A stretch of DNA of 64,000 nt from contig JAGVVD010000019.1 of assembly GCA_019135865.1 (NCBI GenBank), positions 1 to 64,000 of the forward strand, in the 5' to 3' direction. This document shows, piece by piece, positions 38,436 through 40,624 of this stretch. Each line of letters starts with the position of its first letter. Position 1 is the first letter of the stretch. Origin of the DNA: Elusimicrobiota bacterium (GTDB lineage Bacteria > Elusimicrobiota > Elusimicrobia > Elusimicrobiales > UBA9959). Below the pieces are notes generated by a model. It had not been told where the DNA came from and did no database searches. It saw only the letters and a list, made by a program, of their open reading frames with translations. Made by a program: the position numbers and the translations under genes.

Positions 38436-38849
38436 ATGAACGCATCGTTGTTTTCCCTGCTCCTTCTGGCGGCCCCGCCGCCGGCCGCCCGCGCCGTCGA
38501 GCCGCCCTCCCCCGGGCCGGAGATCTCCACGGTCGCCGTGACCGCGAGTACGGCCGCCGTGACCGCGAGCACGGCCGCCGTGACCGCCAGTACGGCCGCT
38601 CTTTCGGGTCCGGAACTGAAACGGGCGAGGAACTCGGAGATAGCCGCGCTCAGAAAAAAGCAGGAAGCCGAGCTGAAGGAACTGGAGATCTCCCTCAGGG
38701 ACAAACCTCCGGCCGAGGCGGGCCGGGCGAGGCGCCGCCTCAGGGCCGCGCACCGGGAGGCCCTCTCCGGCCTGAAAGCGAGGCACGCCGCCGGCGCCGG
38801 GCCCGGCTCCAAAAAGCCGGGGCCGCTCCCGCCGCCCGCCGGAAAGTGA
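38436..38849 (+). CDS. Small exported protein with heptad VTAST repeats
   Basis: 137 residues. A signal peptide (SLFSLLLLAAPPPAARA) is followed by a Pro-rich spacer and three tandem copies of a 7-residue unit (A-A-V-T-A-S-T), encoded by near-identical 21-bp repeats at about 38535-38600. The rest is a highly charged helix (KRARNSEIAALRKKQEAELK and on), likely a coiled coil, with a basic Pro/Gly/Lys tail. It belongs to no family that I recognise. It starts 4 bp after the epimerase stop with GGAGG upstream, so it is probably cotranscribed. A periplasmic structural or wall-associated role is possible but unproven. Confidence 0.6.
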   Translation: MNASLFSLLLLAAPPPAARAVEPPSPGPEISTVAVTASTAAVTASTAAVTASTAALSGPELKRARNSEIAALRKKQEAELKELEISLRDKPPAEAGRARRRLRAAHREALSGLKARHAAGAGPGSKKPGPLPPPAGK

Positions 38850-38913: not shown

Positions 38914-38941
38914 TTGACAAGTCAATACGGTCTGCTATACT
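38914..38941 (+). promoter_or_regulatory. Near-consensus sigma-70 promoter of the small RNA
   Basis: TTGACA (38914-38919), a 16-base spacer and TATACT (38936-38941). This is the best promoter in the window. It does not precede a reading frame but a run of three hairpins. Confidence 0.8.
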
Positions 38942-38947
38942 ATGAAT

Positions 38948-39035
38948 GGCCGCAGGCCCGTGGGCCTGCCGCCCGTTGAAACCCCCCGTAGTTCAGGGGG
39001 GAGCTAAAACCCGCTGAACGCGGGTTTTTGCTTTT
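38948..39035 (+). ncRNA. Candidate small RNA with three hairpins and complementary loops
   Basis: The transcript expected from the promoter at 38914 is about 85 nt. Hairpin 1: GCAGGCC/GGCCTGC (38952-38969). Hairpin 2: CCCCCC (38982-38987), loop GTAGTTCA, GGGGGG (38996-39001). Hairpin 3: AAACCCGC (39007-39014), loop TGAAC, GCGGGTTT (39020-39027), followed by T-rich DNA. GTTCA of loop 2 (38991-38995) is the exact complement of loop 3 (39015-39019); with the flanking G and C the match is 6 bp. A kissing-loop or pseudoknot fold is therefore possible. There is no open reading frame inside, and I do not recognise a known RNA family. The downstream ftcD has its own -10 box, so this is more likely independent than a riboswitch. 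Confidence 0.6.
39007..39035 (+). terminator. Intrinsic terminator of the small RNA
   Basis: An 8-9-bp stem AAACCCGC/GCGGGTTT with a 5-base loop, followed by TTTTTGCTTTT. It is the third hairpin of the candidate RNA. Confidence 0.8.
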
Positions 39036-39094
39036 CAGCGCCCGCCCGCTCCCGGTCCGCGGAGCCGGGATTTCCCTCGCCAACCGCCAAATAG

Positions 39095-39100
39095 TATAAT
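39095..39100 (+). promoter_or_regulatory. Probable -10 box of the ftcD operon
   Basis: Perfect TATAAT in an AT-rich patch 36 bp before the ftcD ATG. TTCCCT at the 17-bp position is a weak -35. GCGGAGGTG precedes the ATG. Confidence 0.5.
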
Positions 39101-39136
39101 TATAAAAGTCTCTTACTATTTCGCGGAGGTGCTTCG

Positions 39137-40624
39137 ATGGGCAAGTTCGTGGAATGCGTACCGAATTTCAGCGAGGGGCGCGACCTCTCCAGGATAAACG
39201 CGATAGTGGACGCCGCCCGGGCCGTGCCCGGGGTCCTGGTCCTGGACGTCGAGAAGGACGCCGACCACAACCGCACCGTCCTCACCTTCATCGCCCCCGT
39301 GGAGACCGCCGCGGACGCCATGTTCGCGGTGACCAAAAAAGCCTCCGAGCTCATAGACCTCAACCAGCACAAGGGGGAGCATCCCCGTATGGGCGCCACC
39401 GACGTCGCGCCGTTCATCCCGGTCATGGATTCGACCATCGAGGACTGCGTCGCGCTGGCCGCGAAGGCCGGCGAGCGCATAGGCCGCGAACTGGGCATCC
39501 CGGTCTATCTCTACGACAAGGCGGCGCGCGTGGAGCACCGCCGCGACCTGGCCAAGGTCCGCAAGGGCCAGTTCGAGGGCCTGCGCGAGGTCATCGGCAA
39601 GGACCCCGAGCGCGTGCCGGACTTCGGACCCAACAAGATACATCCCACCGCCGGCGCGATGGCCGTCGGCGCCCGCCACCAGATAGTCAATTTCAACGTC
39701 AACCTGGCCACCACCGACATGGAGTTCGCCAAGGTCCTGGCCAAGAAGATACGCACCACCGGCGGCGGCCTGCCGGCGCTGCGCGCCAAGGAGATCTTCC
39801 TGGAGAGCAAGGGCCAGGTGCAGATGTCCACGGTGCTTACCGACTATAAGACCACCTCCATCAAGCGCGTGCTCGACGAGATGGACAAGGACCTCGGCCC
39901 CAAAGGCATAGAGATCACCGGCACCGAGCTCATCGGCCTGACCACGCAGGAGGCGCTGACCGATTACGCCGTGGAATCGCTCAAAGTGCAGGGGTTCGAC
40001 AAAGGCACGCAGGTGCTGGAGACCAAACTGCTCAAGCTGCTGGGTTCCTGGCAGTCCGGCGCGGGCCTGCTGGCCGACGCGCTGGCCAATACCGACCCGA
40101 CGCCGGGCGGCGGCAGCGCCGCGGCCATAGCCGGAGCGATGGGCTGCGCCCTCGGCCAGATGGCCGCCGGCATCACCCTGCGCGGCAAGAAGCTCGAGGA
40201 GTCGAAGAAGCCGGGCCTGGCCGCCCTGCAAGCCCGGCTCGGGCGGCTGCGCGGCGACCTGCAGGCCTGCGTGGCCGAGGATTCGCTTTCTTACGACGCC
40301 TTCATGGCGGCGATGAAAACCCCCAAGGACGATCCCGGGCGCAAGCCGAGGATGCAGGAGGCCCTGAAATACGCCGCCGAAGTGCCGCTCAAGACCGCGC
40401 GCCTGGCCGCGGAGGCCGCCGCCGAACTGCGAAAATGCGGCGACATCTCGTCCCATGTCGTCTCGGATTACCGCAGCGCGCTGTACCTGCTCGAAGCGGC
40501 GGTGAAGGGCGCGACGGAGAACGTCTTCATCAACGCCGAGTCGCTCGACGACAAGGAACTGGCGGGCCGCATGGCGGGCGACGCCCGGTCTTTCATAGAG
40601 AGCGTGAGCGCGGTAAAAGCTTAA
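39137..40624 (+). CDS. ftcD: Fused glutamate formimidoyltransferase / formimidoyl-THF cyclodeaminase
   Basis: 495 residues in two domains. Residues 1-300 are the transferase: KFVECVPNFSEGRDLSRINA opens it, with DADHNRTVLTFIAP, HKGEHPRMGATDVAPFIP and HPTAGAMAVGARHQIVNFNV. Residues 320-495 are the helical cyclodeaminase: DPTPGGGSAAAIAGAMGCAL and CVAEDSLSYDAFM. As in the mammalian enzyme, formiminoglutamate is converted to glutamate and the one-carbon unit goes onto tetrahydrofolate as 5,10-methenyl-THF. It completes the hut pathway encoded about 10 kb downstream. It is the first gene of a unit with an acyl-CoA dehydrogenase and ETF genes. Confidence 0.96.
   Translation: MGKFVECVPNFSEGRDLSRINAIVDAARAVPGVLVLDVEKDADHNRTVLTFIAPVETAADAMFAVTKKASELIDLNQHKGEHPRMGATDVAPFIPVMDSTIEDCVALAAKAGERIGRELGIPVYLYDKAARVEHRRDLAKVRKGQFEGLREVIGKDPERVPDFGPNKIHPTAGAMAVGARHQIVNFNVNLATTDMEFAKVLAKKIRTTGGGLPALRAKEIFLESKGQVQMSTVLTDYKTTSIKRVLDEMDKDLGPKGIEITGTELIGLTTQEALTDYAVESLKVQGFDKGTQVLETKLLKLLGSWQSGAGLLADALANTDPTPGGGSAAAIAGAMGCALGQMAAGITLRGKKLEESKKPGLAALQARLGRLRGDLQACVAEDSLSYDAFMAAMKTPKDDPGRKPRMQEALKYAAEVPLKTARLAAEAAAELRKCGDISSHVVSDYRSALYLLEAAVKGATENVFINAESLDDKELAGRMAGDARSFIESVSAVKA

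Follow-up and report, generated by a model that had tools for sequence, protein, structure and literature searches.

A candidate small RNA gene with a conserved three-hairpin fold in one family of Elusimicrobia

The locus and its predicted transcript

The window, i.e. the whole stretch of 64,000 nucleotides that was analysed, belongs to an Elusimicrobia metagenome assembly of 2.95 Mb in 59 contigs, whose closest public relatives are Elusimicrobia/Elusimicrobiales metagenome genomes. The element studied here is located 5' of ftcD, on the same strand. Upstream lies an ORF of 137 aa (38436-38849) which contains a repeated TAAVTAS segment and has no Pfam match. The features of the locus are as follows; P1 to P3 denote the three hairpins.

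38914..38919, + strand: -35 box TTGACA, found by motif scan and invariant in 45 of 45 distinct homologues
38914..38925, + strand: palindrome TTGACAAGTCAA, which overlaps the -35 box (candidate operator TTGACNNGTCAA) and is intact in 35 of 45 distinct homologues
38936..38941, + strand: -10 box TATACT in the conserved context TCTGCTATACTAT, from motif scan and homologue comparison
38948..39035, + strand: predicted small RNA of about 88 nt, from folding, alignment and covariance model, with its probable +1 as first base
38948..38973, + strand: P1, hairpin at the extreme 5' end with a C-C mismatch (38951/38970), supported by compensatory changes
38974..38981, + strand: linker, unpaired in the folds, CGUUGAAA in the window and AACUGUGAA in most relatives, with a nearly invariant UG
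38982..39001, + strand: P2, hairpin with a C-rich 5' strand and a variable loop (38988-38995), 92% of cells paired
39002..39032, + strand: P3, intrinsic terminator stem with loop UGAAC (39015-39019), from the fold and base-pair conservation
39033..39035, + strand: start of the U run, read from the sequence
39137..40624, + strand: ftcD (glutamate formiminotransferase-cyclodeaminase; Pfam FTCD_N, FTCD, FTCD_C), neighbouring gene, given for context only

The promoter (TTGACA, 16 nt, TATACT) agrees with the consensus at 11 of 12 positions and a TG precedes the -10 box. A promoter scan over 2 kb returned two overlapping matches, compared to 0.1 expected. Since a nearly constant distance separates the -10 box from the first GG of P1 in relatives, we infer that transcription starts at the first G of GGCCGC (38948), 7 nt past the -10 box. 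Folding of 38948-39035 gives exactly three hairpins at -51.9 kcal/mol (z = -5.2), and none of 200 shuffled sequences was equally stable. The combination of this promoter with three hairpins is far above chance expectation. No conserved reading frame was found: a short frame opening at an ATG at 38942 or nearby is absent in relatives, and this ATG lies 5' of the likely +1. The locus thus combines its own promoter and an intrinsic terminator with the lack of a conserved frame, the general features of a small RNA gene. The original prediction had described a compact small RNA gene, i.e. a near-consensus promoter driving no reading frame and followed by three consecutive hairpins, the last being an intrinsic terminator; this description holds throughout, and the structure is conserved in relatives. 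Judged from sequence comparison, the candidate at 38948..39035 represents a small RNA gene of its own, about 88 nt long and conserved as a folded RNA.

Distribution of the family

A DNA search recovered the element, at 89-100% identity, from each of the four genomes in the window's genus, and fragments elsewhere. When the region 5' of ftcD was considered in 43 Elusimicrobia contigs, about 30 showed this promoter with the three-hairpin RNA. An alignment of 31 orthologue copies (alignment A3) was used to build a covariance model, which gave clear matches (E <= 1e-9, three of them at about 1e-9) in 45 of the 59 genomes of the same family. These matches span 8 of the 13 genera of this family and correspond to one locus per genome, with the exception of two genomes (G027 and G014) which carry two copies each. 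A match in G013 (1.5e-6), which looks like a promoter and a chance hairpin before an unrelated gene, was left out of this count. Extending the search to the phylum (341 genomes) gave no match better than 1.2e-4 outside the family; as an unrelated second small RNA, described below, also reaches this value, no match outside the family was counted as homologous. The range of the RNA, as far as the model delimits it, is one family of Elusimicrobia only.

As regards known families, no Rfam (release 15) model matched at its gathering cut-off in the whole window, and a relaxed search returned only sub-threshold matches in the window copy and two relatives. These weak matches (DsrA, isrK and others) were attributed to chance, with scores of 17.8 compared to a gathering cut-off of 60 and of 17 compared to 50. 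That the family was not recognised at the outset is consistent with these results. A full-text search of the literature on Elusimicrobia with small or noncoding RNA returned no paper on such an RNA. The candidate is, by these comparisons, a so far undescribed small RNA family of an already known kind.

Conservation of the fold

A covariance search in relatives, proposed with the original prediction, did find a structured RNA with compensatory changes in its stems. Over the 45 distinct sequences, 96.0% of base-pair cells contain standard pairs, compared to 40-58% with slid partners. Two-sided changes occur at 13 of 24 pairs, a number reached in none of 500 shuffles, and 98 cells show compensatory changes compared to 28.5 in shuffles. 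The alignment of these 45 sequences was fitted to the covariance model, which favours high pairing; the independent alignment A3 agrees, with 95.3% of cells paired, 9 pairs changing on both sides and 46 compensatory cells compared to 12.4. In P1, two-sided changes affect all 7 modelled pairs, of which 95.5% of cells are paired. These seven pairs, together with the 96% of paired cells overall, indicate a true structured RNA.

Conservation is unevenly distributed along the molecule. P1 contains a mismatch after its third pair, which is pyrimidine-pyrimidine in 40 of 45 sequences (C-C in 32, U-C in 7, C-U in 1). The two UG columns of the linker are conserved at 0.96 and 0.93, usually within AACUGUGAAC, although it is missing from a few sequences. 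The 5' strand of P2 reads CUCCCC in relatives and CCCCCC in the window, with a conservation of 0.91, and P3 is nearly invariant in sequence (0.96). Loop conservation is low, at 0.44 for P1 and 0.55 for P2. The window's genus deviates in the linker and P2 (CGUUGAAACCCCCC).

Proposed mode of action

Our preferred reading, to which we give a probability of about 0.5, is that the locus encodes a small RNA of an undescribed family which acts in trans by base-pairing through its linker and C-rich segment, without Hfq or CsrA. What is said below on base-pairing, targets and regulator is inferred from sequence. A strong sigma-70-type promoter would produce an RNA of about 88 nt; with a +1 at 38948, P1 would form a blunt 5' hairpin which probably shields the 5' end. 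P1 would be followed by a short open linker, a weak C-rich P2 and the strong terminator P3. Pairing with G-rich ribosome-binding regions of mRNAs would involve the linker together with the C-rich 5' strand of P2 (in most relatives UGUGAACUCCCC). Base-pairing is suggested by this arrangement of an open linker and a weak C-rich stem, with loops that drift. A conserved C-rich segment of this sort is also characteristic of RoxS/RsaE-like small RNAs. The conservation of the P2 5' strand could merely reflect pairing within the stem. The 12-mer complementary to the linker and C-rich strand (GGGGAGTTCACA) was found at one site outside the RNA's own gene in 16 genomes, so any target pairing should be shorter or imperfect.

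Hfq and CsrA were also sought, using models which were positive in the E. coli and B. subtilis controls. Hfq was matched in none of 26 genomes, and CsrA in one of the 26, which is not that of the window. The RNA would therefore act without both. An Hfq-dependent trans-acting small RNA was rejected on the first of these counts, and a CsrA sponge of the CsrB/RsmZ type on the second and on the lack of repeated GGA loops.

A serious rival, even if we hold it unlikely, is that the RNA binds a protein, which it would hold or titrate through the P1 pyrimidine mismatch or the P3 hairpin, as 6S RNA and CsrB-type RNAs do in other bacteria. Such a role would be consistent with the mismatch three pairs from the 5' end, kept in most sequences although all surrounding pairs change, with the near invariance of P3, and with the 12-mer search, which returned no extended complementary target. 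However, the CsrA distribution and the missing GGA repeats also weigh against a CsrB-like version, and the RNA is much shorter than 6S RNA and gives no 6S match. Moreover, terminator sequences similar to P3 match widely elsewhere in these genomes, so that the conservation of P3 may be a generic terminator preference.

Relation to the neighbouring genes

The RNA could also have a double role, as a small RNA and as part of the 3'-UTR of the upstream gene: transcripts reading through from the upstream outer-membrane gene would share its terminator, and the short form would come from the internal promoter. At one locus (L057) the -35 box overlaps the stop codon of the upstream gene, the gene ending at 2807 and the promoter starting at 2803-2804; at another (L052) an OMP beta-barrel gene ends 26 nt 5' of the promoter. 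Across lineages, however, the RNA is constant while the upstream gene differs, being a TPR protein gene in some cases, an unrelated ORF in the window, and on the opposite strand in L056 and L063, which makes this explanation rather improbable.

In most genomes the RNA lies directly 5' of ftcD on the same strand, as would a cis-acting leader or attenuator (riboswitch-like) of this gene. However, ftcD has its own TATAAT-type promoter near 39090-39106, 3' of the RNA terminator, and the corresponding AATTAGTATAATT-like element is retained even in relatives which have no RNA at that site. The same-strand place in the ftcD transcript is not kept in other genera: RNA and ftcD are on opposite strands in L120 and L122, other genes intervene in L124 and L125, and in L049 and L054 the RNA is found 1.2-1.4 kb upstream. 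No co-variation was observed between the RNA and the ftcD leader, and their predicted pairing shows no gain for cognate partners (-33.8 compared to -34.2 kcal/mol for non-cognate ones). An ftcD riboswitch or attenuator was rejected as very unlikely; the RNA is independent of ftcD and is no leader of it.

Complementarity between two loops

The P2 loop (GUAGUUCA, 38988-38995) contains GUUCA, the exact complement of the terminator loop UGAAC (39015-39019). The original prediction took this for a kissing loop or pseudoknot by which the terminator could be modulated, possibly by a ligand, or the RNA could dimerise. The five-base complement is indeed exact; the sixth pair also claimed (GUUCAG/CUGAAC) would need the opening of the closing pair in both stems. 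Chance pairing had been judged unlikely, but as a single event the match is not striking: the probability of a Watson-Crick match of 5 nt within an 8-nt loop amounts to about 4 x (1/4)^5, or 0.4%, and the case was picked out among many hairpins. We compared the longest possible loop-loop helix in 31 sequences. The window reaches 5 bp. Its relatives of the same genus reach 0 (L032) and 3 bp (L033 and L064, whose terminator loop UAAAC differs from that of the window by one base), and no such helix can form in the other 27 sequences, since they have CAAAA or CAAAG in the terminator loop. The P2 loop varies freely in relatives. The five loop pairs are formed in 19% of cells, a value within the 12-22% obtained with partners shifted by 1-3 columns.

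A contact possible in one of 31 sequences, and in cells no better than slid controls, makes a kissing loop or pseudoknot that governs termination or dimerisation scarcely credible. Loss of the complementarity in relatives had been named in advance as the point that would refute it, and the complementarity is indeed lost, which refutes the contact as a conserved feature; a ligand-modulated terminator or dimerisation through these loops finds no support either. The match is most likely a coincidence, confined in our comparison to the window's genome. Striking loop complementarity in a single genome can thus be due to chance, even inside a real RNA.

A palindrome at the promoter and a possible regulon

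The six bases which follow the -35 box (AGTCAA) have an average conservation of 0.88 and complete the palindrome TTGACNNGTCAA in most copies. In 59 genomes this motif occurs 575 times (counts are sums over per-genome tables), compared to 76 for the reversed pattern and 121 for a version with a 3-nt spacer. Ten of 45 copies have no intact palindrome, which is therefore inessential to the RNA gene. In two genomes, TTGACNNGTCAA sites precede genes which encode outer-membrane proteins of FadL and UPF0164 type, PilM, a pilin, an M48 peptidase, a lytic transglycosylase and clostripain-type peptidases, and in three cases c-di-GMP-I riboswitches lie between the site and the gene. A literature search returned no paper with the motif as written.

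As outer-membrane, pilus, peptidase and cell-wall genes have this palindrome in their promoters too, the RNA may be co-expressed with a set of envelope or surface genes. Going further is doubtful: the small RNA proposed above to act by base-pairing would be the riboregulatory part of an envelope/surface regulon of Elusimicrobia that is so far undescribed. A putative TTGACNNGTCAA-binding factor would control outer-membrane, pilus and peptidase genes, of which some have c-di-GMP-type riboswitches, and also this RNA and a second small RNA, both acting without Hfq or CsrA.

Several other loci associated with the palindrome were noted. Riboswitches of c-di-GMP-I type above the gathering score were found at L165:1340-1418 (-), L166:1345-1420 (-) and L168:1594-1672 (+), just 3' of TTGACNNGTCAA palindromes and 5' of outer-membrane-type or glycosyltransferase genes. 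A second conserved small RNA is present in a larger related genus, at L107:2500-2616, L108:3143-3258, L112:2813-2930 and ten similar loci. It has its own promoter, a GGAGCGGAACACCTTATCGACGGTTGCCTTCCGCTCC hairpin followed by GAGGGAGACA, and a terminator, with TTGACNNGTCAA upstream of the -35 box in most loci; the copies in L108 and L112 match no Rfam family at the gathering cut-off. In the window's own genome, L158:1501-1640 contains a palindrome and then a strong promoter (TTGACA..TCTGCTATACTAT), with a long hairpin at the 5' end and what may be a terminator. It has no long reading frame and is perhaps another small RNA. It was rejected as the form of the second small RNA in the window's genus, the alignment stopping at the promoter. 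Strong palindrome promoters with similar GC-rich leaders (AGTCTTGTTCTCTTTAAAGTGCG...GGTCG) are present near position 1501 of L164, L171, L173 and L178, where no convincing reading frame and no Rfam match were found. Orthologous palindrome promoters at L163:1501 and L176:1501 precede a similar leader and then an unannotated, membrane-anchored protein (MMKLQSKKNKSTQYVIGG...) which has no Pfam match.

Comparison with known small RNAs

The candidate constitutes a well-supported new RNA family. It is described by a covariance model, its phylogenetic range is clear, and it comes with a conserved mismatch motif and a candidate operator; these features are directly testable by metatranscriptomics. Its general shape of hairpins and terminator resembles that of DsrA and isrK, with scores far under the gathering cut-offs. 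The enterobacterial envelope-stress small RNAs MicA, RybB and CpxQ need Hfq and sigma-E or CpxR. The likeness to them would lie in a possible co-expression with outer-membrane, pilus and peptidase genes, whereas no Hfq was found in the 26 Elusimicrobia genomes examined.

RepG of Helicobacter pylori is a small RNA in which a C/U-rich segment pairs with a G-rich leader (PMC8295292). A C/U-rich segment is also present here; RepG, however, pairs through its terminator loop, while in our family most relatives have CAAAA in this loop, and the C-rich part belongs to hairpin 2. The likeness is one of description. RoxS and FsrA are C-rich RNAs which base-pair to G-rich ribosome-binding regions (PMC8216469). 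Compared to RoxS/RsaE, FsrA and CsfG of Bacillus and Staphylococcus, the Elusimicrobia RNA gives no sequence or covariance-model match, and its C-rich stretch makes up one side, the 5' strand, of a short stem; it nevertheless shares with them the organization of a small intergenic RNA with hairpins, a terminator and a C-rich region.
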